This document shows, one piece after another, positions 32,273 to 63,155 of a DNA stretch of 64,000 nt. Both the position numbers and the translations under genes were made by a program. The notes under the pieces are model-generated. The model made no database searches and had not been told where the DNA came from. It worked only from the letters and a program-made list of their open reading frames with translations. This DNA comes from Polytrichum commune (taxonomy: Eukaryota; Streptophyta; Polytrichopsida; Polytrichales; Polytrichaceae): assembly GCA_950295325.1 (NCBI GenBank), contig OX485804.1, forward strand, positions 64,572,533 to 64,636,532. Direction: 5' to 3'. Every line of letters starts with the position of its first letter. Positions within the stretch are counted from its first letter, which is position 1.

Positions 32273-32468
32273 ATATCTTTCTCGGCCGATTGGCTAAGAT
32301 CAAGTGTAGTATCTGTTCTTATCAGTTTAATATCTGATACGAGGCTCATCGAGCCTCATGGTATTAATCTAGTAATTATTTCTTGGGTGCGAGTCCATCC
32401 AGCAGCTTGCTGTTGGGACTAGCACGCGTCGCCTTGGTATTGCACTTCCTCCTTGGCAGGCGCAACCC
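32273..32468 (+). ncRNA. U2 snRNA, near-full-length copy
   Basis: The copy is 196 nt, the plant U2 length. The 5' stem region is changed to TCTCGGCCGATTGGCTAAGA. The branch-site pairing segment GTGTAGTATCTG is intact, followed by TCTTATCAGTTTAATATCTG. A 7-bp hairpin GAGGCTC-ATC-GAGCCTC forms stem II. An Sm-like AATTATTTCTTGG and two 3' stem-loops ending in CGCAACCC follow. No canonical plant upstream element or TATA box is clear at -70 or -30, so it may be a pseudogene or a gene with an unusual promoter. Confidence 0.75.
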
Positions 32469-34138
32469 TTCCCTCCAGGGACCTAAACAATTACATGTGG
32501 GAATCACTGCTTCCAAACTCTTAGAATGTGATTAGATCAAATACAAGAAGATTCTGAAGCAGTATCGGAATTTGTCGGCTTCTCATCTTAGAACCATGTC
32601 TCGAACCCATGTCCGAGAACCATGGCCCGTGCATCCAGATATTACACCGACCATGCTCTTCCTCCTCTCACTTGCTTCATCATGTGTAAGGTTGTCCATG
32701 TACAAACCTTTCGGTAACCTTTCCAACCGATAGCACACAGTTTGAAGGTCTGGTTGTTGGTGCTGAGCATCTTCTGGGTCATATTAGTCGCAACACCCGA
32801 TGTAGACACATGTTCTGTGTCTTCTCACGTCCATCTTGGAATTCTGGACCATAGTGACAATCACAATCTTGACGCAGAAAGCAAACTATTATATACTAAG
32901 GGTATGCTACTTGAATTGAAACACAACTGAAAGGAAACCACAGAGCGCTCCTTCGTGTTCCTACATTAGAATTGCTTTCGAGGCGCTGCTTAATGTAACC
33001 ATTGGTCGAACACAGCCAGATTCCCCACATAAAATCACGCAAGTTTTTATGTACCAGATAATCTCAAAATTCATGTTGTTTACCGGTGTAGACAAGGTGT
33101 ATATTGAGTCTACAGGAAAGTTCCAATCAAAATGGTACTCTGTAAATCGACATTAACATGAAATCCCATATGAAGCTCCAGTTACAGGTGTTTAGAGACC
33201 CGGAGAAGATTAACTCCGATTGTCACTTCAGGCTTATCCGAAGAATTACCAGCATCTAAGGACAGAAATTCCGAGTGCGACAGAAGGTAAGAGGCACCAA
33301 GAGGTGGAATCTGCAGCAGGAGTATATCCCCATTTTGAAATGGTCTCCAGATTACCTATCGACGCTCAACTTGTAGAAATGTTGATGAATGCGAGATGTC
33401 GATTATGCGATCACTACACTATATTCAAAGGCAATATTCTGACTATGGTGAGCAAATTTGCGGACGTTGTCAAATCATCTGCCTCACCAGAGCATCTACG
33501 AGAATGAACAAATGGAAGTAATTAATGATTATGTCCACCTTGTATTGGGCTTGGTATCCAATCCCTCATTTCATGCCATAGATACAGGGGAATCCCTTTA
33601 AGTTACGGAACACTATAGAGTGTCCTCACCATTTATTCGTATCTGCTGGGGAAATTCGAAGCCAAGGAGCAGGGCCCACCTGAGATCACACACAATACAT
33701 GATCACTCCAACTTCTTTGGAAGTTAATGGCTCCATGGAGCATTTTCAATACTGGACGACTCATTAACCTTGTCTATTGATCATGGATCTTAATGGAAGT
33801 TTTACTACGTCTGTAAGTGGAACAAATTTCACATAAGCCCTTGCCTCCTCTGGATATACTGAATATAAAGTAATGATTATTTGTGTGAGTATTTATCGGC
33901 ACCATAAGGCAGCTTGATATGAAATCCACAATGTTTGGATGCCCCTCTGGAGGATCAAATAACTATACGTCATTAAATTGTGGACACACTGGACATCTGC
34001 TTCATCAAATTCTTATGGGAAATACACAAGACCTAGAAGATACTGTAACATATGAGATCACGCAGATCTCATCGTACATGAAGCCATGTTCATGTACTGG
34101 CGATCTCAATGAGAATGAGCATATACTACACAAGTAAT

Positions 34139-40296: not shown

Positions 40297-43200
40297 CTAG
40301 GGTCTTGAGTGGTTCATTTTTCTTGTTCTCAATCTTCTATCGATCAGATTTACGTCCTCAAACTTGTGTTCTAGGTCTTGCAAATCTATGGGGAAACATC
40401 AACAACAACAAAAAAAACATATTCAAAATTGGACCTACAACGACAAGCTCTCGGTTAAAATCTAAGCTACCTCATGGAGGTCGCTTTAGAGTGTTTGAAA
40501 GTTCGAGCTCTTGACTTTTTAAGCACAAGCTAATCTTGTTTGTCAATCCTTTAACAAAATAGTACAATTCTCCTCCCGATTACATTCATTATTGAGTGTG
40601 GAGTACTTCTTGAAACTTGAAGACTTGGTCCAATCTCTTTAAAACATATGTCTTTATGATGTTTGTTCTTTGATATTTACTTAACCACACACCAATAAAA
40701 AGTGAAGTGTCACATTAATCGAGACAAGTGACCAAATAACACTAGCATAGGTCTTTAATGCATGCAACGCCAAGGTGACACTCACTAATCATGATAGCAA
40801 GTTGCCAAATGGATCGGAACCCCACAGAAGTTAGTATGCCATGATTAACTATGCATGAAAATATTTAGTTTGAACACTAAAAAAGTTAAGATGACATGGT
40901 TGATAAAAATGAATACATGTAGCTCAAATATGCTACTTTTTGCTTGGAAAGGCCCAACATGGGCCTCTTAGACGCTTAGGGGTTAAGATGAGTGAGTTTC
41001 TATACATAGTGGATATTAAACTAATAAGAACAGATACTACACTTGAACTTAGCCAAAAGGCCGAGAAGTGTGTGCTTTTGTAACCCAATTAATGATGATG
41101 ACCACATAAGGCCACATACTTTACTTGTGAACAACCCCTTGAGGCTTAATTGGCTTACTAGGTATGGAACTTGCAATCTCCTCACATATTGATTGTCGAG
41201 AAGAAGTCTATGGGCGATGAAAACAACTTCTGGCTTCTGGTGAGGCCACGTTGCCTGTGCTTTCTCAACCGTCGGATTTGACCGATGTAACCCTCCTCCC
41301 CTGATCTCCTCCGTCCACTGCGAGTATGTTGATGAGTATGATACAAGACTAAAGGTTAGTTATGACATATAATCAAACTTAACTTCAAGATAGCCTATGA
41401 AGTTTCAATTCATTAAGGTTGAGGCATCTACAACTAATAAAGTAAGAGATGTTTGCATTTGTTTAGGAGGAGTAATAGCAAGGGATTTCTTTCCTTGCGA
41501 AGAGAAACAAATTCTGAGGAGAATGTAATTCTCTTTACATGTTTTTCATGAATATGGAAATCCTTACAAATTCCAAAGCGGTAAAGTTTAGGGGAACACA
41601 TAGACAATCTGTAGGTTAACCCATAACCGCTCATCTAAATGCTAATACTTGGCTATGACAGTCGTCAAAACTCTATGAAGGTAATCAATCACAAGCCGCC
41701 ACCACATAGACCTTACCTACATTCACCTAAAAAATATAAATCTCATCCATGTTGGCATTACATGTTCCCCAATGAGTGGTTCAATGAACCTAGTTGACTT
41801 TGGATGCCTCGACCTTAGACATGTATATCCTCTCAAAACAAAACCGCGTCTTTCAAATATTATGTACAACCCTAATTTAAAACTCCCATGATAAAAAATA
41901 ACATCTATACATTGATTATCCCGCAGCTAGAACTGGTGTTGATTTCAAAGTACACTAAAGGGTACTCTATTTCATCTTTACCAATGCCAGAATGTAGTTT
42001 CCACGTGGAATTCAACTGTTCCAAATTGATGCAAGATTGACATGTGTCAAGATATAAGGAAAAATATATTATTATTTATCATAATGGATTATCCTTTACA
42101 AAAGTGTGGACCACACCATTGGTACATTTCACACACCGACTGCATATGACCAATAAAGTTACCAATGTACGTTATATGTCACCCTAAAAAATAGTTTATA
42201 TGAATGCTATTATTAAAAAAAATGCATTAGATAAGTGATGGATTTTGAGTGGGGTCACCATTAGTCATTCTAAGCTTACAATAAGAGCAAGTAACCTTAA
42301 ACACCTAGATCAAATGACAATGATGTTCACGCCACAACCATTGTGAGGAGGAAATTATCACAATGATGTGGCATCATTCTATTGGCTATAAAGAGGATGG
42401 TTATAGTCCACAGGGGACCCACAACCATTTACTCTCATGATTGGTATGCTAAAAATAACATGATCACTTATAATATTGGTTTCTCACTTAGGTCAATTCT
42501 CCCTCAATTTGCTTATGTATGAAACCAACACATAACATTGCCCAAAACTAGGATTTAAGTATATTTGGATTTTTGCATGAATTTTGGACAATTTCAACCA
42601 TTGATATAACGTACACTAGATCACAAACTTCACAAATATGGAGGTTGGTGAACATGGAATACAAACATTCGAAGTTGTGGTTGTTGTGTTGTTGTTTTAT
42701 TGTTGTCATTTGATGTTTTTGTCCTCACAAGTGCACATTTCTTATTCTTTTTGGACAAATGTTACTTAGATGTTACATCCAAGTACGGATAATAATTGTG
42801 CCCTTCTTTGCACTCCTGCAATTTGTGAAGGCAATTGGCTATAAAAATTCAAAGTTGAGCTCCCTATGTCATTTATCATAATCTCTAAACACTTGAGGGG
42901 GTTTCCTTTGCTAATTGACATGCTTTCAATAATGGAATTTATGATGTAGTGCAAAACACACATGTGCTAGTGCATTCCATAGTGGTGGAATGCATTGTGA
43001 AGCTCAAAACCATGTGAAGGTACCAAGGTTTCCCGAAGCCTTTTTTAAACATGGTAAGGCCCTCCGTGTCTCACTTTACATAAATCAAGGACCTTGCCCT
43101 TGGGTCACAACCCTTGCTTCCTATAGAACCCTCCCCTCAATGCCTTCCCCTACACATAATGGACCTTTAGGACATTTAAGGGTAAAGGTATGTATACGCA

Positions 43201-50980: not shown

Positions 50981-52534
50981 CAGGCCATAAATTTGACACC
51001 CTAGCCAAATTTCCAAGGGACACCCTGTCCCAAGGACACCCTACTCCAATTTTTGGGTGTCCTCATAAATTTCTCTTAAATTTTTTTTTTTGTCAAAATA
51101 GGTACAATTTTGAAAAATATATAATATCATTTCAAATTTTCAATTAAAAATCAAAAAAATCACTACATATCATAACTTGCAATGCAAATCAAACCTACAA
51201 GCGGCGGCCTTTCATAGCACACCACTTTACCCATACTTGTTCAAAGTCAATGGCCTCTATGGGGATTTTTGCCATTGCAACTCTCATTTGTGCTTCCAAA
51301 GTCTCTAATACCAAACTACACCGTAAAGTAGATTTAATATGATTTTGAGTAGAAAATCCTCTCTCACAAGAAGCTGTACTAGCAGGAATTACAACATAGT
51401 CCAAATTGGAAGAATAAACCATCCAAGCTTGGTGCATTTTAAGACCATCACATGAAATATGAAGTGTATCCAAAAAACCTCGAAGCTCTGATTTTAAACC
51501 ACGCTCATCAAAAAGATTCCCTCCATTAGTGCAGAAGTGGTCAATGAAACTCTGAAGCCATAAACGAGCATTTCGATGAAGAAGTGTCAAGTCTGTTGAA
51601 AAACAGACAGGGCTAAATAGCTTAGCTGCATTGAAGAGCTTCAAATCAGGAAATCGTTGCTGCAATGATTCTATCACCTTAACCACATAGGCCTGTGCAA
51701 TCACCTTGCACCCATGGAGGGTACCATCACCACCAAACTCAATTGCATGAGGCAATGGTGCATAATGCAATATATGTGAATGCACCACTCCTGTAGAGTC
51801 TTGAAAATGGATCTCACCACCTCTAGAAATGTCCAAAAATTGTGCCACAAATTTGGTATCCGCACCAAATTCCTCATATTCATACACCAGTGATTCAAAG
51901 GGAATTGCTCAAAACAGTTTTGGTTGAAAAGCAAGAAAAACTCACATTGGTTGGAAGCAAGAAAAAACTCATATTGAGTGGAGGATGTGGAGGCACCACG
52001 GTGATAGAAACATTTGCCTCACCATGTTCCTAGTTAGTCTCGCTCTCCATTCACCGTCCTAGCTCCCGGTTACAAAGGAAATTGCAAGAGCAAAGTTGAA
52101 CTTAAGTATGTGAGTGAGTGTAGGAAGTTCTCCTACTGTTATGGGTTATGTTTTCCGGATACTTGAGCTGCACTTTATAGTACTCAAGTAATACATGTCA
52201 TTTCAATTTCTAGTGTGTCAATTGACGTGTGATTTTTTTCTTCACAAGTCACAGTACGTGTCAATTTCTAGAATGTACATGTCAATTGACGTGTATTTTT
52301 TTTTTGTGCAAGTTTTTGCGTGTCAAAAAAGAAAAACTTGCAAAAACTTTTGTCAAACATATACGCTGATAGGCCCTACAAGTACAGGGGACACCCTGAA
52401 TTTTTTTTGGGTGTAAAAAGGACACCCTTGTAGGATTTTTGGGTGTCCTCGGGGACACCCTGTTTGAGATTTGGGTGTCCTAGGACACTCTAGGAAGCAA
52501 AATACACCCCCCAGGGTGTCAATTTTATGCCTTG
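50981..52534 (-). mobile_element. hAT-family DNA transposon, internally reduced
   Basis: This 1,554-bp element has inverted termini CAGGCCATAAATTTGACACC and CAAGGCATAAAATTGACACC, and an exact 8-bp duplication CATTGTAC at 50973-50980 and 52535-52542. Many GGACACCC and GGGTGTCC words crowd both subterminal regions, as expected for hAT transposase binding sites. The only large ORF is the minus-strand transposase C-terminus. Confidence 0.9.
51195..51887 (-). pseudogene. hAT transposase, C-terminal part
   Basis: The open frame has 230 codons. Its last third contains VIPASTASCERGFSTQNHIK, the conserved core of the hAT C-terminal dimerisation domain, followed by the usual arginine and leucine pattern (STLRCSLVLETLEAQMRVAM). 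The N-terminal BED finger and the first part of the RNase H-like catalytic core are absent. The element is therefore non-autonomous unless upstream exons exist, for which there is little room. Confidence 0.85.
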
Positions 52535-52728
52535 CATTGTACACTTTTTATAATCCTTCTATACAATTTACGGAACCTTGGTATTTGGAGACTCTTGAAC
52601 CTGACTAGGGTTTAGGGTATACTTATTTGGGTCTGGAGAGTAGGTTGCTCTGAACCCTAACCCAAAATCAAAAACTAACCGCAGGTTGTACCAATGATGA
52701 TTATGTTCAGAAACTTGACAAGCAACCA

Positions 52729-52815
52729 ATGAGCCTCAATGAGCCTCATATCAGATATTAAATTGATAAGAATAGATACTACACTTGATGCTAGCCAAAA
52801 GGCCAAGAAAGGTAT
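52729..52815 (-). pseudogene. U2 snRNA 5' fragment with snRNA-type promoter remnants
   Basis: The minus strand starts ATACCTTTCTTGGCC, keeps the branch-site segment AAGTGTAGTATCT, and ends after stem II (GAGGCTCATTGAGGCTCATT). The 3' half is replaced by repeat R2. Upstream on the minus strand lie TACAAATA at -32 to -25 and CCCCATATGGG at about -70 to -60. These are the spacing and partial sequence of the plant Pol II snRNA TATA box and upstream element (RTCCCACATCG). It therefore looks like a former gene copy, not a retropseudogene. Confidence 0.7.
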
Positions 52816-52959: not shown

Positions 52960-53314
52960 AGTTGTATTGAACAAGTGGTTAAGTTACATGATGTGAACTT
53001 TTCCTGGATTGAGCATTGTGTGTCACTAGATTGGTTATACACCTGGTGAATACCATTCCCATCAAGCAGATTTTCCACACTGCATACAATCATTTCATTG
53101 GATTGGCGGCGTTGGGCGATGGGCTTAATCCTAACATGAACAAGAACGAGCATACTTTGCTTTGCTACCCTTGTATTTCAATTCAAGGATTTATTTTTTG
53201 CGTCTCAAGTGTGGCTCTTAGTTTCTGGATGCACATGAAAACATACAGAGCCTTTCTCCAAATGGGGTGTTGCGGCTGATATGACCTAGAGGATGTTCAA
53301 CACCAACAAGCAGA
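52960..53314 (+). repeat. Fragment C of the 27.9-36.4 kb family
   Basis: In opposite orientation this matches the minus strand of 28.30-27.97 kb (TTCCTGGATTG, TGTGTGTCACTA, TGAATACCAT, ATTGGATTGGCGGCG, TGTTCAACACCAACAAGCA). Similarity stops at about 53312, where the retrotransposon-associated sequence begins. It carries none of the membrane-peptide ORFs. Confidence 0.75.
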
Positions 53315-53315
53315 T

Positions 53316-55039
53316 TGTCACGGTATGCGGCGTCGACGGCCGCACCTTATCCGTTGGGTTTCATCCATCTAGATTTGGATGGATGAATCTAGATGTGGAG
53401 AGGAAGGCTCCTAAGTGAGGAGCCTCCTCCTTGGCTTGGCATTCTTGCCAAGTCAAGTCTTGTGAGTTAGTGTGTGGAGAGAGCTTGTGTGAGGTGTAGA
53501 TTGCATGATTTTGCAATAAATCTTGAGTTCTTCTTCCCCTACTTACACTCTTGGATTCTCCCTTGGTGGAGTGAGAGATAGCTTGACTAGTTGTGTGCAT
53601 TTGGAGAGAAATTAGAGCTCTTATGAGTGTTCTACTCTCATCCATCTCACTTGACAAGAATGCCTCATTTTTTATGTTTTCTTCTTCATTCTTGAGATTT
53701 AACGCGCTAGGGAGGGCGTGAAGACAAGGAGCGACGAAGTGTCGGAGTTGTGGAGTGGAGAACACCAAAAATTCATGAAACAACAAGAAGAAACACGCTT
53801 GCTTGTAAATGTCACAATGAGGTGAATTGTGATGACAAATTCTTGAATTTCCACGGAATTTCATGTTGTTGTTCTCAGATTCAAGCTTGAATTCGAGACA
53901 TTGATCTTTGGAACCCCCGTTGTGATTCTAAAGAGGAAGTTTGAATCAAACAATCACTAAAAAAAAAATTAAAAAAAAGGGGGAGGAGCTCTCTGGGGGC
54001 CGGAGCCCCCTGGCTCCCCCTGCTGGCCGGCGTCTGTCGGCGGTAGACGGCGTCAGCCGACTGTTGTTGGGCCGGCTGCTACAGGGGCCAGCAGCTGTGG
54101 GGGGCCAGCATCAAGGCAGCTGCTGCTGCCTCTTTTTATTTTTATTTTTATTTTTGGTGTTCTAATTAATTAATTGAAACAAAAACTAGGACTTTTTATA
54201 ATTAATTTAATTTAAATAATTAATTTAAAAACTGGAATTTTTTATTTTAATTTTTTTAATTAATTATTAAATGTTTTCTTTCAACTTCTAATTTTTCTTT
54301 TCTCCCTAAGAGGTTTATTTTATTTTTTTCATTAATCAAAAACACAAGATGAACCTTAAACCTCTTATGAAATATTAGGGTATTTGGGATTTCTTTTAAG
54401 GGTTGTGTTGCACCAAATTTCCAAAGGAGTGTCATTGGAAATTGGATGGCATGTGGAATTCCGTTCGGCCTCAAATAAATTCTTATTAGGGTCGAATTGT
54501 GTTTGTCAACACATAATCCTGGCATTCTTACGAGGAGGGATTCTTAGGTTGTAGTGGGAAGATGAGAGATATGCATACGTAGCATTTCTTTTTCTTAAGC
54601 AACAGGGGCTTTTCATTGTTGACCACCAACTGCAGGCGGGTGCCAGTTGGTTGCGGTCGGTTTCAATTTCAGCTTGAATGTTGTTTTGGGGAAGAGGATC
54701 CACTGCTGTTCTTGCATTGTTCCTTGTATTTTGTTTTGGTACCTTCCCTTGTGGCGGGCTGTAGTGCTGGAGTGTTCTAGTACTGCCCCATTTTGTATAG
54801 TCCTAGATTGTGATAGGGTACTGTGGAGGTGAGGTCGGATTAATGACCGACGTGACCTTTGTTTGTGCACCAAGTGGACGGTGCTTGTTTTCACTTGTGG
54901 TGAGGCTGGGTTAATGACCAACAGACCATAAGTTTTGGTGGTGGTTGCAGGTGCAGGTTGCCTTTGACCCTTTTTCTCTTTGTACCTGGATACTAATTCA
55001 TTTGGGTTGTTGATTCGGTGACCATCCCATTGTGGATTT
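53316..55039 (+). other. LTR-like and leader region of the retrotransposon
   Basis: It starts TGTCACGGTATGCGGCG exactly where family C similarity ends, consistent with an LTR edge. GCAATAAATCTTGAG near 53514 could be a polyadenylation signal. TGGAACCCCCG near 53909 could be a primer site, but I could not match it to a tRNA. GC-rich palindromic sequence lies at 53990-54120 and T-rich sequence at 54125-54260. No matching 3' LTR was found, so the boundary is tentative. Confidence 0.35.
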
Positions 55040-55443
55040 ATGGTTACAACTCGTACTCAACATTATCGTTCTCCGTCCCCAGGAGCATCGGAAGGTCATC
55101 CCTCGGACCTCTCGGACCCAACGAGGCTTTTCAGCCTACTTCGGCGTGGGGGACTATCACTCGGTCTCACGTCCTGTGGGTGGGAACCTTTGACGATATG
55201 GAGGAGGAGACTAGGGGAGGGATACGGGACCGGTTTTCCGGTCGAGCAGGGACCATTTCTCTGCAAGACTGGAAAATCCGGTTTCGTACGTGGATGCGAG
55301 AGAAACGCCAACGCAATACCAATTTTAACGATTGGTATGCGTTCGAGCTTCTGCCTCAACATTTGGAGCATGAAGCTCTCCAAACTTATGAGCAGTGGAC
55401 GGAGGCTCATTGGATGGAGCTACGCCAGGTGGAACGGTACTAG
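55040..55443 (+). pseudogene. Gag N-terminal part, frameshifted
   Basis: ATG 55040 opens MVTTRTQHYRSPSPGASEG, the basic Ser/Pro-rich start usual for plant Ty3/gypsy Gag. Between about 55125 and 55190 the coding frame shifts to that of the rest of the polyprotein (SLQDWKIRFRTWMREK, LLPQHLEHEALQTYEQW). A TAG at 55441 ends this part. The main frame then continues without gap. Confidence 0.65.
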
Positions 55444-58400
55444 GAGACTCATGTTGAGTTGGTATCCACATTGAAGGAAGGCGTAGCTTCCAGTTTCATG
55501 GCCGTCCCTGAGGTTAAGTCGGAGGTGCCGGAGGGAGTATTTATAGTGGATGTGGAGGGAGCTTCTCCTGGTGAACCCAATGATAAGGGTTATGCTCCCG
55601 CTGTGGCGAGTACGTCGAGTCCCATTTTTCCACTCTCCCGTTATGCCCAGGCTACCCAGGCGGCTTTAGCCTCTTTGGGGGCTCCGCCAGTTTGTGAGCC
55701 GTTGCGGGCATTTGAGCTGCATCTACATGAGGAATACGGAGGTTTCCGTCGGGACCAAATGCAGCGAATACAAGATTTTAGACGGGAGAAGGACGATACA
55801 CCTCGTACCATGTATACGAGGTTGGCGATGTTTGCTAGAGAATCTGGAGGTGTGTTTGCGGAAAGTCAATTGGTGAAGGTGTTTTTGTCCAAGATTGACA
55901 AACGCCTCCTTGACTTGGCGCTGCCCAGGATCATCATGGATTATGATGGTCGGGCGACACTCGCAGAGGCATTCGCCATTGTGGAGCAGTGTGATCGTGC
56001 ATTGTGTCAACATGATGCCACTGATTTAGTGTCCTTGCTAGTGGATTCTAGCAAATCCCGGAAGGCGCCGGTCGCGACTGTGGGATTGGCGGAGGTCGAG
56101 GTACATAAGACCATGTATTGTTGGTCTTGTGGGCAGGCTGGCCACGCTAAGAAGGACTATCCTTCAAAGCAAAGGCAAGCCCAGACCGTCACTACTCCGA
56201 AGCGGAAATCATTTGTTCCCGCTAAGGGCTCGGCGAAGGGAACGACGGATAATCAGTTACCTAAGCAATTGAAGTGTTCCCATTGTGGGCGGAACAATCA
56301 CGCGGTAGAGAACTGCTTTGCTCTCCATCCTGAGAAACGTCCTTCTTCCGACCGGGAGAAGACGTTGGAGGCGAAGATTGGAGCCATGGAGGAGAGGTTC
56401 AAAAGCTTGGCGTCATCCGGCCAAATCTTGGCCTCACCGTCTTCCTCCGGAACTCAGGCTAGTTCTTCCACTCCGAATTACTATATGTTCGGAGCCTCGG
56501 GCGAGGTGGTGAGTTCCGCGGCCGTGACACGTGCTCAAGCCGTGTCACAATCCATACCTTCGACCACAAATGAATATGTGGCAAGCTCGCGAGCTCGGGA
56601 CAATGCGCCCGCGGACCAAATTGGTCATGCACGACTACCATTATCTTTTGGATTGGCCGATGCCATCCAATCTATCAGTGGTCGTCATCCGAACGATGAG
56701 GTTTCACAATCAGCGACCGATGTGGCGCACACGTTGGCATCCAAGGTGTTGCACACACCTTTGTTCACGGCCATGAAGTGGTCATCGCCAGAGTTCCAAC
56801 CTGCTAAGGTTTTTCACTTAGCATGTAGGATTTTGGAAGGGAAGGCATCCTTATCTTCTCCGACCGTGGCTCAAGCCACTACGGACATCTCTGCTTCTGA
56901 AGATCTTGAGGATGTGGCCAAACGGCGAGCGAGACTTGCGACAGAGACCATTGCGTCTTTTGACGCACACGCCTCAGATGACAAGACACCGATCACGTCT
57001 TATGACTCACCAGTATCCGCAGGTGCAGCCTATCTGTCTGATGTCGCTGCTAGACCTGTCCGCGAACGCCGCGGTATTCGACCCGGCGTTGTGCGTATGG
57101 TGAATGATACCGGAATTTTGGTGGCCAGTCGCACTGGGAGCAATGCTACTCGGGTTGCTCCCCGTTGTGTGATGATGGATTCAGGGGCACAGCCAGTTAT
57201 GATCGGCAAAAGGCTTGCCCAAGAGTTGACGTTGACGGCCGAGAATTTGGCTCCATGTCCATTCACAATTGTCACATCCATTGGTCACGTGGAGTGGGCC
57301 ATGGGTTATACTCGAGAGCCATTACAACTTAGCTTCCGAGTGAAGCCTGGAGATTCACCCGCACCTCTTCTTCTTAGGTGTGCGGTGACGGATGCGACCA
57401 ACTATGACATTTTAGTCGGTCAGCAAGCACTTTACCCTCTTGGTTTTGGTTTGGACAACTGGACTGAGGAGGCGTGGATCCGACCAGGTTGGTCAGCTGG
57501 GGATGGTCGCAGGGAACTTTTTCCCGTGGCTTTTGCGGCGGCCGCGACCATAACACCATTATCTATGGTTTTTGGATGTGGTGCTATGGTGGACATATTG
57601 CCTTATGGTTCCGCACTGTTGGAGGAGTCATTGGCATTCATGGGGAGTACAGACGATCAACGGGATATGGCACCTAAGGGTGCATTGCTGCGCCATCCCA
57701 AGGATCCCCTTCCTCCTTGGCGTGATTCCGCCGAGCTATTTCGGAGGTGCGAGGATATTGTTCATTCTCTCACTCCTAGGACACCGGTCATACCGGGTGT
57801 CCTCTCGGCATTGGCACATTCCATTTTATGGCAGCCGCCAGACGCGGGGATTACTTTGGTGGAACTGTTTGGGGGCATCGGCACAGGCTTAGCGGCCGTA
57901 TTGGAGGCTGGCCTCACGGTTAGACAGTATGTCTATGTGGACAACTGTCAAGTGTCCACCCGTGTGGCTCGTCACCATCTTCACCAATTGATGGTATTGT
58001 ATCCCCAGCAGTTACCTCCAACTGCCATTCGTGGGTGTTTTTCACGTCTCCCTCGTGATGTCACACTCATCAGTGAGGCCGACTTACGATACTTAGGACC
58101 GGTGGATATGGTGATTGCGGGATGGCCATGCCAGGGCCATTCACGTGCTGGAGCAGGCGGAGGACTAGAGGATCCCAGGTCTACTCTATTTTGGGACCTC
58201 ATCCGCCTCATGCAGTGGTGGTATTCCCACCAACATTTCCCTCCAGGGTATATTTTTGATAATGTACCTTTGTTGGGAGACTCTCGGGACAAGGTGTTGG
58301 AAGGCGATTATTATGTTCGTCAACACCTTGGAGATCCCATTTTTGTAGATGCCGCGAGCATTGGTTCTTATGCCCACCGACCTCGGTGGATTTTGACCAA

Positions 58401-58965
58401 CCTCGCACCGTCATCTACTTTAGCTGCAGCATTTTCTGCAGTGTCTTCACCTTTGGATCAAAAGGTGGATGACATCTTGGATCCAAACCGGACTTCTTTG
58501 CCGGTTGTTCGAGATGATTTACTCCCGTTGGCATTGGTCAACAAAATGGGGGCACCACGGCGGGCTTTTCCCACATTTATGACGTTTCCACAGTCATTCG
58601 CTTTTCGCGATAGGGGGCCGGGTATGGTGTGGGATGTTCACACCAAAACCCACACAGAACCATTGGCTGACGAACGGGAGCGTGCCATGGGATTCCGCAC
58701 TGGCACCACCGCAGCTCCCGGCCTTTCTGAGGGCCAACGACGCTTCGTATTGGGCCAAGCTATGGATCTTCATACTATAGTGTGGACTGTTGTTTTATGC
58801 CTTTCATTGCAAAGGCATCGTGGTGACCAGTGGTTGTCTCTGGGGACAGAGGACTCTGGTCAGGGGGCACAGCGGTCCACACTCATGGAAGAGGGAATTC
58901 ACGCCATGGTTGGAGAAGCCGAACGAATTTTTCAATTCGAGCAGCATGTGATGGAAGAGCTTTGA
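55444..58965 (+). CDS. Gag-protease-DNA methyltransferase polyprotein segment
   Basis: An open stretch of 1,168 codons from 55459, counted here as residue 1. It is preceded in frame by a stop at 55441, so it is part of a larger polyprotein and has no start of its own. Order: Gag capsid-like helices (about 70-210), zinc knuckles at 221 and 273, a long linker, aspartic protease with DSGA at Asp574 and YDILVG, then a C5-cytosine methyltransferase from about 800 to 1110. Methyltransferase motifs are I (LVELFGGIGTGL), IV with catalytic Cys891 (GWPCQGHSRAG), VI (FDNV, Asp934), VIII (AHRPRW), and IX-X (ERERAMGF, LGQAMDLHT). The motif order I to X is the canonical one, not the rearranged order of plant DRM enzymes. 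The last Cys of the first knuckle is Tyr. A TGA at 58963 ends the segment. Confidence 0.9.
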   Translation, partial: ETHVELVSTLKEGVASSFMAVPEVKSEVPEGVFIVDVEGASPGEPNDKGYAPAVASTSSPIFPLSRYAQATQAALASLGAPPVCEPLRAFELHLHEEYGGFRRDQMQRIQDFRREKDDTPRTMYTRLAMFARESGGVFAESQLVKVFLSKIDKRLLDLALPRIIMDYDGRATLAEAFAIVEQCDRALCQHDATDLVSLLVDSSKSRKAPVATVGLAEVEVHKTMYCWSCGQAGHAKKDYPSKQRQAQTVTTPKRKSFVPAKGSAKGTTDNQLPKQLKCSHCGRNNHAVENCFALHPEKRPSSDREKTLEAKIGAMEERFKSLASSGQILASPSSSGTQASSSTPNYYMFGASGEVVSSAAVTRAQAVSQSIPSTTNEYVASSRARDNAPADQIGHARLPLSFGLADAIQSISGRHPNDEVSQSATDVAHTLASKVLHTPLFTAMKWSSPEFQPAKVFHLACRILEGKASLSSPTVAQATTDISASEDLEDVAKRRARLATETIASFDAHASDDKTPITSYDSPVSAGAAYLSDVAARPVRERRGIRPGVVRMVNDTGILVASRTGSNATRVAPRCVMMDSGAQPVMIGKRLAQELTLTAENLAPCPFTIVTSIGHVEWAMGYTREPLQLSFRVKPGDSPAPLLLRCAVTDATNYDILVGQQALYPLGFGLDNWTEEAWIRPGWSAGDGRRELFPVAFAAAATITPLSMVFGCGAMVDILPYGSALLEESLAFMGSTDDQRDMAPKGALLRHPKDPLPPWRDSAELFRRCEDIVHSLTPRTPVIPGVLSALAHSILWQPPDAGITLVELFGGIGTGLAAVLEAGLTVRQYVYVDNCQVSTRVARHHLHQLMVLYPQQLPPTAIRGCFSRLPRDVTLISEADLRYLGPVDMVIAGWPCQGHSRAGAGGGLEDPRSTLFWDLIRLMQWWYSHQHFPPGYIFDNVPLLGDSRDKVLEGDYYVRQHLGDPIFVDAASIGSYAHRPRWILTNLAPSSTLAAAFSAVSSPLDQKVDDILDPNRTSLPVVRDDLLPLALVNKMGAPRRAFPTFMTFPQSFAFRDRGPGMVWDVHTKTHTEPLADERERAMGFRTGTTAAPGLSEGQRRFVLGQAMDLHTIVWTVVLCLSLQRHRGDQWLSLGTEDSGQGAQRSTLMEEGIHAMVGEAERIFQFEQHVMEEL

Positions 58966-60870
58966 GCTCAACATTTTTACACTGCTTCGGTTTCTTCACC
59001 TCCGGTGGTGGCTTCATCATCACATATTGGTGGTGATGAAGAAATGTCAGACTCTAGTACTAGCACCGAGACTGGGGGCATGGTTAATGCCCCCTCCTCT
59101 CATTAGCAATTAGAGTTTGTGCCAGCATCAGGTGGTTCTCCTTTGGTGGAGAGGAAGACTACAGAGTTTGATGATTGGCCACTTGAATTAGGCCCTCGTC
59201 TCACTGGTGCTGAGGCACGGAAGGTACGAGCATTTATTCGCTCGTACCGTAGATGTTTTGCTTTTAGCCTTCAAGATCTTGAAGGTTATAAAGGAAAACC
59301 CATCCACATTCAGTTGGAGGATGACTATCCCATTTTTCGGAGACCTTAAAGGCTCAGTGTTTCCGAGCGGATTGGCGTTCAGGCTCGTTGCCGAGAGCTC
59401 TTGGCAGCAGGGCTAATCTAATTTTCCAACGGGGAGTATGCTTGTGCTACGGTTATGCCATCGAAGAAGGATATCTTTGGCAATTGGACGGAGAAGCGGA
59501 TGTGTGGGGATTACCGTCCAGTTAATCGGAAGACCAAGTCGGATCGATATCCCATGCCAATCCCGGAGGAGTTGTTCGATGCCCTCGGATTTGCTCGAGT
59601 CTTTAGTACGTTGGACTTGAGATCCGGCTATCACCAACTCCCATTACTTGTGGGAGACCGAGTGAAAACCACATTCTGGGGAGTTGATCAAGATGGGAAG
59701 GATCAACTTTACCATTGGAGGTTTCTTCCATTTGGCCTGAATAATGCACCCGCTGAGTTTCAGCGGGTGATGGATCAGGTTCTCTCTGGCTTGCCCTTTG
59801 CTCGGTGTTACATAGACGATGTGATCATCTTCAGCACAACACCACAGGAGCATGTGAGGCATCTGCAAGCCGTTTTTGAACGGTTGCAGCGGTGGGGATT
59901 GCGCTTGCACCACGGCAAGTGTAAGTTTTTCCATGACCGGTCGGCATATTTGGGGCATATGATTGTTCCAGAAGGTCTTGGGATACAACAAGCTAAGGTG
60001 GACGCATTGCAGAAGATTCCGGCACCGGTAGATGTGCCGAGACTTCGTGCTTTCTTGGGCTTGGCGAATTACTATCGGCGATTTGTCAAGAACTTTAGCT
60101 TGATTGCCAAGTCGCTCACCATTCTCACGAGCAAGGACCAACTTTGGACTTGGGGTCATGAGCATCAACAGGCATTTGAGACATTGAAGCAGAAACTGGG
60201 TACAGCTCCAGTGCTTCGACGTCCAGATGTCTCCAAATCTTTCCAGTTGCATACAGACTGGAGCTCATTGGGTTTGGGAGCAGTTCTTACTCAGAAAGAT
60301 GATGTTGGCCAGGAGTATGTTGTTGCTTACGCGTCGCAAAGCAACAACACGGCGGAGGCCAATTATTCGTCATATGAGAGAGAAGCATTGGCGGCGGTGT
60401 GGGCTATTGTCCATTTCCGGCCATATCTTTATGGTCAACACTTTACTTTGGTGACTGACCATCAGCCGTTACGGTGGCTCATGGAGTCGGATAAGCTTAC
60501 TGGCAAGCTTGCCAGGTGGGCTTTGTTGCTCCAGGAGTATGACTTTGAGGTGGTACACCGTGCTAGGATTACCAACATGGATGCAGATGGACTCTCACGC
60601 AATCCAAGTCCTTCGGATAAGGACTTGACCGGGGCCAGGTGGCATGGAGATTGTGATCGAGAGGCGGTTCCAGGTTGGCACGCGGTTGCCTACCTCACTT
60701 TATTTTCTGGTGTATCTGTTGAGATTCCGATCCAGGGCTCGGATGATGAGACTGATCGGCCTCAAGCTATTGCGGATATATGGGTGGATCTTCCCGTATT
60801 GCATAAGCTTCAACAGGGTACCTTTCCTTTGTCTATTTCGGCAATGAAAAGGGATAGGATTGGACATTGA
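58966..60870 (+). pseudogene. Reverse transcriptase and RNase H, interrupted
   Basis: In the same frame as the upstream segment. Stops at 59104 (TAG), 59347 (TAA) and 59419 (TAA) fall in the linker and N-terminal fingers. The 471 codons from 59455 are open and hold CGDYRPVN, STLDLRSGYHQ, FGLNNAPAEFQ, the active site YIDDVIIFS at 59809, and the thumb (LGLANYYRRFV). RNase H follows with TDWSSLGLGAVL, YEREALAAVWA and TDHQPLRWL. The TGA at 60868 ends it. Typical Ty3/gypsy layout. Confidence 0.93.
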
Positions 60871-62004
60871 ATAACAAGGTTCCGTTGGGAGAACGGTTTG
60901 TTATTTCGATTGTGGCCGGATGGGACAAGGCGTATTGTTCCTAGGCCGGATCAGAGGGCCTCCTTGGTGCGACAAGTGCACGAGGAACTTGGCCATTTTG
61001 GCATACGCAGGACACATTCGATGTTGCGTGGCCAATATTGGTGGACTGGCATGTATCAGCAGGTGGCTGTATATGTCGGGAGATGTGAAGTTTGTGACCG
61101 GGTCAGGTCTAGCTTTAACACCTTATCACCTCAGTTACAGCCCTTACCTATCATGGAATTAGGCTACCGTTGGTCGCTGGACTTTGCAGGGCCGTTGGTA
61201 GTTACACCACATGGAGCAAAGTACGTTTTGGTGATGGTGGAGCATTTTAGCAAATGGATTGAGCTTGTTGCTCTACCCCAGAACTCTGCAGAGTTGGCCG
61301 CGGCCGCCTTTTTGGATCGTGTGTTAGCACGTTTTGGAGCACCAGATGAGGTGTTGACGGACCAAGGAAGGGAGTTCCTTGGTGCTTTTGAGTAGTTGTG
61401 CACTAAGGCTCTTATAGATCACCGCACCACCTCTCGGGATCATCCGGAGGCAGATGGCTTGGCTGAACGGGTTGTTCAGACAACCAAGCGTGGCTTGAGG
61501 AAGTATGGATTACTTCGGGGAAGCCACCGGGATTGGGACCTTATGTTGCCATGGATTGCTATGGGCTATCGATTTAGTAGGCAGGCCTCTTTGGCATCCT
61601 ACAGCCCGTATCAATTATTGTATGGATGTGAGCCTATACTCCCGAGTTCTATTCGGGAAAAACTAGCCCCTGTTGTGAACTTGGATGACCCAGACCTTTG
61701 GGCAGAGTGTTTGCAGGAGCGGGCTCAATTCTTCCAGAGGGCCATGCCTATGGCCATGGAGAATTTGTCCATTGCTCAGCACTACGACACATTGCGTTAT
61801 GCACGCATTCGTAGTGGTGCTTACCGACCTCAGTTGCGGAGATTTCGGCAAGGGGATTATGTTTATCTTCAACGTGAGGCGCCTACGACATTGGATGTCA
61901 GGGCGCGGGGCACTATCCTTCGAGTGAAGGAGGTGTTGCCAAGTGGTTTGTTGTTGTTGGAAGGCAAAGATGGCAGGGAATGTCGCGAGCATTCCAAAAA
62001 CTGA
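60871..62004 (+). pseudogene. Integrase, one internal stop
   Basis: Same frame again. The zinc-binding HHCC part is HEELGHFGIRRTH followed by CEVCDR. The DDE core has WSLDFAGPL, VLTDQGREF and HPEADGLAERVV. A TAG at 61393 lies between the second Asp and the Glu. The C-terminal DNA-binding fold (RFRQGDYVYLQ) follows. A TGA at 62002 separates it from the PHD finger in the same frame. Confidence 0.9.
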
Positions 62005-62253
62005 GCCCCATATCATCTACCTATTAAGGGTACAGTTCATTCTGAACTGGCCGTCGTACCAAAGGGTCTTCCATGTTTTGTGTGTGGAGAGAAGAAATGA
62101 GCGGCTACTATGCTCTTGTGTGATCAGTGTCAACGCGGTTGGCACATGGCATGCTTACGGCCACCCTTGACTTCTCTACCATCTGGACAGTGGAGTTGTC
62201 CTCGCTGTCGAGGATCTTCGGTACTTGGTGCTTCCACCAATCGTACTCAGTGA
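62005..62253 (+). pseudogene. C-terminal PHD finger of the retrotransposon polyprotein
   Basis: Still in the polyprotein frame, CFVCGEKK, MLLCDQCQRGWHMACL and GQWSCPRC supply the complete C4HC3 zinc pattern, with the aromatic residue before the sixth and seventh ligands (Trp before the H-x2-C pair and W two residues before the last C-x2-C). A TGA at 62098 lies in the variable loop. The terminal stop is at 62251. PHD fingers commonly read histone H3 tails; here it occupies the place where chromoviruses carry a chromodomain. Confidence 0.85.
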
Positions 62254-62963
62254 TCCTGTGTGGTTTTCATCATCTTGTGCCTGCCCAAATGGAATATGAG
62301 AAGTTACGACCTAGAGACGCAATCAACATGAGGCGGTGGATTTAATTCTTTGGGATCTGATGGCCAAACATCAGAGGTGATTAAGGATGGGGCTCACCTT
62401 GCACCCAGCCTACAGTTCCTTGGAATAACGTTTACCACACTAGTTAGTTGCGGAGCAATCTTTCATTATCCATGCCCTTTAGATTGGCATTGGTCCTAGC
62501 TGCTTGGCGGGACTCCATAGTCAGCTGAGGGGGGGCATGTCGAGGTGTATTGTTTATGTGTGACTTTACTATGTTTTAGTGTTGTTTGTTAGTGGTGGTT
62601 GGTACTCGAGCTGCAATGACACACGATCGCTATTTACACGACAAGACACTGAATACTCTGTACAAACACTTTAAGAAATTATGGAAACTCTGGAGTGGAC
62701 ATCCTTACACATGTTGAAGCAAGTGAGACAAGAGATGTTCCACATTGTCTAAAATATTCCTACAAAGTTGTTGGAATCTTTGTATGCACGGGCTCTTAGT
62801 TCTTGTTGGGGTTTGTGAATACATCTAAAAGTGCCACAATTTTGATATGTTTTGGTCCAGAATGGCAAGGCTACTACTTGCAAGCAAAGTGTAAGCATCC
62901 AAAATTTGCGAAGATTGTAGATTTAGTAGTTTCTTTTTGTGATTGTTTGGATCCCCGAAGCAA
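62254..62963. other. Retrotransposon 3' end and flank
   Basis: It holds the polypurine tract at 62524-62537 and the putative LTR start at 62538. I could not find the LTR end or a copy at the 5' side. No other gene is seen before the U2 copy. Confidence 0.4.
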
Positions 62964-63155
62964 GGGTTGCACCTCCCAAGAAGATAGTACAATACCCAGG
63001 TGATGCACGTAGGTCTTGACAGCAGGCTACCAAATAGTCTCACACCCGAGAAAAAATAGATTAATATCATGAGGCTCAATGAGCCTTGTATCAGATATGT
63101 AACCGATAAGAACATATACTACATTTGATCTTAGCCTAAAGGCCAAGAAAGGTAT
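62964..63155 (-). ncRNA. U2 snRNA, second near-full-length copy
   Basis: The minus strand starts ATACCTTTCTTGGCC. The branch-site segment is AATGTAGTATATG (GUAGUA core kept). Stem II is AAGGCTC-ATT-GAGCCTC. An Sm-like CTATTTTTTCTCGG follows, then 3' stem-loops ending GGTGCAACCC, about 192 nt in all. Upstream on the minus strand are TACATAAA at -31 to -24 and ATCCCATATGT at -54 to -44. These resemble plant snRNA elements, but the upstream element is closer than usual. It is a gene or a young pseudogene. Confidence 0.75.

Follow-up and report, generated by a model that had tools for sequence, protein, structure and literature searches.

A Ty3/gypsy retrotransposon family in a moss genome carries a captured DNMT3-type cytosine methyltransferase (DNMT) as a standing part of its polyprotein. 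We describe it from a 64,000-nucleotide stretch of that genome (the window), in which one copy spans positions 53316 to 62643, and from further copies elsewhere in the same assembly. The family anatomy is terminal repeat A1, Gag, aspartic protease (PR), DNMT, a UAG stop codon, reverse transcriptase (RT), RNase H (RH), integrase (IN), PHD finger, polypurine tract (PPT), and the repeats B1, A2 and B2. We consider it probable that the enzyme is produced at the level of Gag, ahead of a leaky UAG, and methylates the element's own cDNA.

The preliminary description of this DNA had reported a complete C5-cytosine methyltransferase, with motifs I, IV, VI, VIII, IX and X in order and a catalytic Cys codon at a defined position. 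Both claims hold: the motif series is present, and the TGC codon lies exactly where it had been placed (Table 1). Comparison of the domain with known methyltransferases had been proposed as a check. We used copy L033, in place of the window copy, for the single-sequence search and for the fold model. Among solved C5 methyltransferases DNMT3A was closest (E 1.6e-8, residues 5-188), followed by HaeIII (4.3e-6), HhaI (4e-4), 4onj, which we take to be a tobacco DRM (1.4e-3), and, far weaker, DRM2 (0.19). A profile built from the domain alignment matched DNMT3A at E 4.4e-18 vs 3.8e-8 for HaeIII. Pfam DNA_methylase covered part of the domain, frame residues 871-949 (E 8e-10). The confident structure model of the L033 domain has a DNMT3 fold with canonical motif order, not the rearranged order of DRM. 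The likeness to DNMT3A in sequence exceeds chance, and by sequence and predicted fold the domain is DNMT3-type. DNMT1 and CMT were absent among the matches listed for the sequence, profile and fold searches, which does not exclude either. A viral origin was considered and rejected: three stretches of viral contigs fit a pattern and none was a relative, and the BFVD matches were mostly phage and giant-virus C5 methylases with a larger root mean square deviation.

The genome searched comprises 408 Mb in 64 contigs, seven of them large (42-78 Mb). The DNMT domain as query gave 590 candidates; the 124 that were scored all matched, and they are spread over all seven large contigs. The corresponding Pfam search gave 123 matches among 123 scored candidates (353 in total). 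We read 14 further copies as 10-kb stretches, picked for long frames. Six of them (L031, L033-L037) have both frames open, with 1356-1386 codons in open reading frame (ORF) 1 and 1047-1048 in ORF2. The copies form two subfamilies, I and II, whose DNMT domains are about 64% identical. We also searched for copies free of DNMT by way of the protease, for which 150 of 459 candidates were scored and all 150 matched. Among the best 47 of these 150, a downstream DNMT match is listed for 41, and in 38 of these its spacing agrees with that in the window to within 50 bases; the remaining six, once fetched, proved to hold a broken DNMT in five cases and neither DNMT nor RT within the 2.7 kb read in one. 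No direct junction of protease and RT lacking the DNMT, and no DNMT-free copy with a clean seam, was seen among these 47. The family is multicopy and recently active, with the DNMT as a standing part of the polyprotein.

The host is a land plant and most resembles a moss. The best matches to psaB of contig C8, a plastid contig by its gene content, are 7ksq, 6l35 and 8htu, presumably all chains of the moss Physcomitrium (1671.8 bits; next 1634.3). The suggestion that the phenomenon would be extended if the species were a land plant is therefore borne out, and elements of this kind occur in other land plants too. Named DNMT relatives come from Marchantia polymorpha, Calypogeia fissa, Closterium and Klebsormidium nitens, and relatives of the pol part additionally from Riccia (best 120 of 2879 listed). 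We found no report of such bryophyte elements in the literature searched. Among 174 fetched proteins, 38 join PR and DNMT, 46 carry RT-RH-IN-PHD and no DNMT in the same protein, 20 (including P0059) are single proteins with the DNMT ahead of RT, and in 35 it lies between RNase H and integrase. The last arrangement, RT-RH-DNMT-IN-PHD, marks a sister group (P0047, P0049, P0053 and about 30 more proteins).

We built two quick trees; for the DNMT, only a human DNMT3A piece and P0059 stand outside. In the DNMT tree (66 rows) a supported clade unites 34 of the 35 RH-DNMT-IN rows; beside it stand two long rows, P0137 and, of the other kind, P0103. In the RT-RH-IN tree (84 rows), 27 RH-DNMT-IN rows fall into a clade of 30. 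The other three members, P0109, P0112 and P0113, have no DNMT in the protein. Since the RH-DNMT-IN rows group in both trees, the two DNMT positions fit one move within the polyprotein; a second capture is possible. We regard a single origin of the DNMT capture as likely from these comparisons. The alternative, that the moss and charophyte elements acquired DNMT3 independently, is unlikely, though it keeps some footing: the trees hold no host plant DNMT3, and P0059, which we judge DIRS-like by eye, is locally closer to the L033 domain (41% over 128 residues) than K. nitens is (34% over 320). Against independent uptake stand the bit scores with L033 (K. nitens 170, P0059 72, human piece 58), the joint grouping of most RH-DNMT-IN rows in both trees, the shared place in ORF1, and a repeat plan like that told for K. 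nitens in the main text of PMC5890265.

The DNMT and RT are separated by a UAG. This codon is followed by CAA and YYA in all 15 copies first compared (14 loci and the window). In all 15 it continues the frame of the DNMT, and in 14 of the 15 it also agrees with the frame of RT. We then examined 20 further copies, 18 of them alignable (L060 and L069 were not). All 18 have the UAG and 17 the CARYYA context, the misfit being L065. Overall, of 35 copies examined, 33 could be aligned; all 33 have the UAG and 32 the context. The codon after CAR in the 32 fitting copies is TCA, TTA or CCA and thus varies between Ser, Leu and Pro, which indicates that a nucleotide motif is kept rather than an amino acid. 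UAG CARYYA is known from tobamoviruses as the motif of type I readthrough (PMC5382211). A stem is predicted behind the UAG, with z scores of -2.97 in L033 and -4.44 in L042. We measured its covariation on 32 copies (26 distinct; L064 was omitted for an indel). 97.1% of cells pair, 17 cells changed on both sides vs a shuffled mean of 5.7, and shifting the partner lowers pairing to 21-44%. RNAalifold agrees on the outer pairs and gives a different inner pairing. Because of the conserved UAG, its CARYYA context and the RNA stem, we infer that Gag-PR-DNMT is most likely the main product and Gag-Pol a minor one made by readthrough.

These features suggest the following course. Most ribosomes would stop at the UAG and yield Gag-PR-DNMT, and a minority would read through to Gag-PR-DNMT-RT-RH-IN-PHD, as in retroviruses with a gag-pol stop. 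The DNMT would then enter the virus-like particle, the site of cDNA synthesis, at the level of Gag and most likely add 5-methylcytosine to the element's own cDNA, at CpG sites by analogy with DNMT3. The integrase would join the TGTC...GACA ends to a 4-bp staggered cut, and the PHD finger may direct insertion to particular chromatin. Methylation of the element's own cDNA is our best guess on account of the position, dose and selection of the DNMT. Alternatively, the enzyme could be kept and act elsewhere, released by the protease onto host DNA, competing elements or target chromatin. The DNMT adjoins the protease and could be cut free, its place on the Gag side is not required, as the sister group with the DNMT between RNase H and integrase shows, and the Symbiodinium authors discuss genome-wide effects in the main text of PMC5890265. 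As the DNMT would be made together with Gag and RT, the particle is the favoured site of action, and we think action elsewhere unlikely.

Under a further alternative, the UAG would be an ordinary terminator, with RT-RH-IN-PHD arising in a translation event of its own, through reinitiation or on another RNA. The relatives are often two predicted proteins, as the counts of PR-DNMT and RT-RH-IN-PHD proteins above attest; KFL_013780020 and KFL_013780010 of K. nitens are neighbouring by locus tag, with contigs of equal length, and L033 ORF2 has an ATG at codon 14. The common frame, the near-constant CARYYA context and the RNA stem speak for readthrough instead, and the relatives P0103 and P0110 are predicted without a stop. 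We therefore hold separate translation to be improbable.

The DNMT domain is under purifying selection between the subfamilies. The catalytic Cys is kept in 35 of 35 aligned rows and ENV in 33 of the 34 rows with that segment. These counts and the confident structure model speak against a loss of catalysis in which the domain would persist to bind nucleic acid or to play a structural part in the particle. We think this reading improbable; it would agree with selection weaker than on RT, with the DNV of the window copy, and with GWECQ in place of GWPCQ in 3 of 35 rows (P0032 from Closterium, P0027 and P0034). Insertion of a host gene as a single event, or chimeric assembly at 57.8 or 58.9 kb, is a negligible prospect for which no supporting point was found: copies on each of the seven large contigs show identical seams, and 46 of the best 47 protease matches carry the DNMT.

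Several results weigh against a Gag-level, self-methylating DNMT. Constraint on the DNMT is weaker than on RT-RH and IN (ratios of 0.11 vs 0.03 and 0.02), and within the subfamilies the DNMT ratio reaches 0.33 (I) and 0.58 (II). The PHD finger has a ratio of 1.44 within subfamily II, from very few changes. Synonymous divergence (dS) between the subfamilies is saturated, such that 9 of 18 DNMT pairs were computable and none for Gag or PR. CpG depletion, looked for as a footprint of self-methylation, was not found in the elements (0.68-0.77; rest of the window 0.47). The K. nitens domain was silent in yeast, a result that its authors call inconclusive (PMC5890265, main text). Two of the five stem measures, pairs with double changes (3) and pair types (8), did not exceed the shuffles, and the double changes lie mainly on one subfamily split, hence few events. 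The protease is assigned by motif: its Pfam matches in the moss genome are weak, below the Pfam cut-off in L033 (E 0.0012 and 0.0019), and pass it in the relative P0103.

A PHD finger closes ORF2 (Pfam PHD in L033 and L042, E 2e-10). Its closest relatives in the PDB are the PHD fingers of CHD4, PHF12, KAT6A, PHF21A, ATXR5, UHRF1, KDM5 and AIRE, and several of those fingers read histone H3 unmethylated at K4. Chromoviruses are gypsy elements with a chromodomain behind the integrase. The moss element likewise has a putative chromatin reader at this place, with a PHD finger instead of the chromodomain. A wider and rather doubtful extension of our reading would see one ancient streptophyte Ty3/gypsy lineage whose polyprotein combines a DNMT3 as writer with a PHD finger as reader. 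Through the leaky stop, the DNMT would be present at the level of Gag and methylate cDNA in the particle, integrase and PHD finger would steer it to chromatin with unmethylated H3K4, and the element would arrive pre-marked as silent and in silent chromatin, sparing both host and element. The split repeats would regenerate the ends from a GACAGCTGTC junction that keeps uncut termini.

We read nine copies at both ends (L033-L037 and L041-L044). All nine have the order A1-internal-PPT-B1-GC-A2-B2. The A repeat is 334-335 bp long in subfamily I and about 420-567 bp in subfamily II, and B is about 106 bp. The elements end in TGTCAC and CACGACA and are flanked, by eye, by perfect 4-bp target duplications in every case (GAAG in L033 and L036, TTAT in L034, TCTT in L035, GATG in L037, ATTG in L043, CTCC in L044, ATGC in L041 and CCAC in L042). 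These duplications indicate the reaction of a DDE integrase despite the DIRS-like arrangement of the repeats. The B1-A2 junction is a perfect palindrome, GACAGCTGTC, in all nine copies (positions 8839-8848 of L042); it joins both element ends with GC between them, as if storing uncut ends. Recent insertion is indicated by the 97.9-100% identity of A1 and A2. For the other five of the 14 copies the 3' end was read: L038 shows B1-A2-B2, L031 and L032 retain a single B and lack A2, L039 lacks both, and L040 is rearranged. In summary of class, the elements have the PR-RT-RH-IN order, DDE integrase and short target duplications of Ty3/gypsy. In place of plain long terminal repeats at both ends they show the split variant A1...B1-A2-B2 (9 of 9 copies), and instead of the tyrosine recombinase and lack of target duplication that define DIRS they have a DDE integrase and 4-bp duplications. 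By eye, we saw no clear candidate for a tRNA primer site behind A1. Tandem repeats of about 147 bp occupy the 5' leader of subfamily II copies (L033 829-1119 and others).

Table 1 Features of the element copy in the window.
Feature	Position	Strand	Remark
5' terminal repeat A1, starts TGTCAC, left element end	53316..53648	+	96.4% identity with A2 of copy L042; flank AGAT 53312-53315
Gag start (MVTTRTQHYRSPSP...), out of frame with the remainder in this copy	55040..55474	+	Resembles Gag start of P0002 and L033
Open frame Gag-PR-DNMT, 1173 codons stop to stop	55444..58965	+	Ends at copy-specific TGA 58963-58965
Two CCHC zinc knuckles, 56119-56160 (Tyr for last Cys) and 56275-56316	56119..56316	+	L042 has Cys there
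Retroviral-type aspartic protease, motif DSGA within 57172-57210	57172..57600	+	Right bound approximate
DNMT3-type C5-cytosine methyltransferase domain (by sequence and predicted fold), 322 aa	57847..58812	+	
Catalytic Cys codon TGC, motif IV (PCQ)	58129..58131	+	
Motif VI	58258..58266	+	DNV instead of ENV in this copy
UAG CAA UUA, conserved stop between DNMT and RT	59104..59112	+	Type I readthrough context
Predicted RNA stem 3' of UAG	59119..59218	+	Arms 59119-59130 and 59205-59218
Reverse transcriptase and RNase H	59422..60870	+	
Integrase (H2C2 zinc domain, rve core, C-terminal part)	60871..62004	+	Split by TAG 61393-61395
PHD finger at pol end	62074..62208	+	Other frame and one stop in this copy; Pfam PHD in L033, L042
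Polypurine tract GAGGGGGGGCA	62527..62537	+	By eye
Repeat B1 (TGTCGAGG...CACGACA)	62538..62643	+	A2 and B2 missing in this copy; flank AGAC 62644-62647

The window copy is a decayed Ty3/gypsy element. Its Gag is frameshifted near the start, and it carries stops at TGA 58963, the family UAG at 59104, 59347-59349, 59419-59421, 60868-60870 and 61393-61395. In intact copies, the Gag-PR-DNMT frame extends past the TGA site to the common UAG. The preliminary description had given 1,168 codons for this frame and had placed the DNMT in one open frame between protease and RT. The frame is indeed single and open, with 1173 codons from stop to stop, and the position and the common frame of the DNMT stand; one continuous open frame up to RT does not, as four stops intervene. 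Motif VI of this copy reads DNV, the sole such row among the 34 aligned, so its DNMT is probably not catalytic. The flanks AGAT and AGAC suggest a worn target duplication, and A2-B2 would have been lost by recombination between B1 and B2.

Four matches to U2 spliceosomal RNA lie in the window, at 32273-32470 (+, 156 bits), 40977-41072 (-, 66), 52621-52815 (-, 88) and 62962-63155 (-, 128), and probably represent U2 genes and pseudogenes in a dispersed cluster. The element sits between the last two. Targeting of U2 is unsupported: no U2 match was found in the 14 other 10-kb stretches or in upstream pieces of eight copies, which, with 3' flanks seen for 410-754 bases in nine copies, is no exclusion. 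A snoU36a match (L046 41-130, 77.4 bits) lies about 1.2 kb upstream of copy L034. The window also holds a possible remnant of a hAT transposase dimerisation region (51195-51908, -; Pfam E 0.0019, below the cut-off).

A transposon that bears a host-type silencing enzyme kept by selection makes the question of transposon DNA methylation testable in land plants. The presumed leaky stop offers a concrete handle on the enzyme dose, and a moss with young insertions provides material for methylome study of new insertions.

Capture of DNMT by retrotransposons in dinoflagellates and charophytes, to which the preliminary description had referred, is documented by SymbioDIRS-Dnmt3 and KnitGypsy-Dnmt3 (PMC5890265, main text), and the streptophyte and dinoflagellate cases are repeated in a passage of PMC12344493. 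SymbioDIRS-Dnmt3 is described as a retrotransposon with a Dnmt3 and A-coding-B-A-B repeats, and differs from the moss element in its tyrosine recombinase, where we find a DDE integrase and 4-bp target duplications (PMC5890265, main text). An orchid Ty3/gypsy element has likewise captured a nucleic-acid modifying enzyme (PMC9289625); there it is an AlkB RNA demethylase in an additional ORF, unlike the DNMT inside ORF1 of the moss. With tobamoviruses (PMC5382211) the family shares the UAG followed by CARYYA, but the putative readthrough stop of the moss lies between Gag-PR-DNMT and RT of a retrotransposon. The closest known system is KnitGypsy-Dnmt3, a K. nitens gypsy element with a Dnmt3, DIRS-like repeats and purifying selection on the domain, which de Mendoza et al. 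2018 call an acquisition in the K. nitens lineage (PMC5890265, main text). The moss elements have the same Ty3/gypsy pol with inserted Dnmt3, the same repeat order and the same mode of selection, and in the alignment P0048 and P0110 of K. nitens cover DNMT profile positions 1-322 and 69-319, a homologous DNMT at the same place before RT. They differ in the land plant host, more than 100 copies, the UAG readthrough context, the PHD finger and the 4-bp duplications, at least as far as the main text goes: PHD, read-through, target site, Marchantia and Physcomitrella have no mention in it (PMC5890265). P0048 ends directly behind the DNMT, and P0163, whose locus tag adjoins that of P0048, contains RT; a PHD finger is present in P0131. 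The K. nitens elements may thus share several features of the moss elements, and the difference may be partly one of description. By sequence comparison, the moss elements are of the same kind as KnitGypsy-Dnmt3, to which they add land-plant hosts, a probable leaky stop with the DNMT on its Gag side, a PHD finger, and split repeats flanked by target duplications; the sister group adds a second DNMT position. The spread of DNMT-bearing gypsy elements over charophytes, liverworts and a moss, with two places for the DNMT, suggests that this is no curiosity of one alga.

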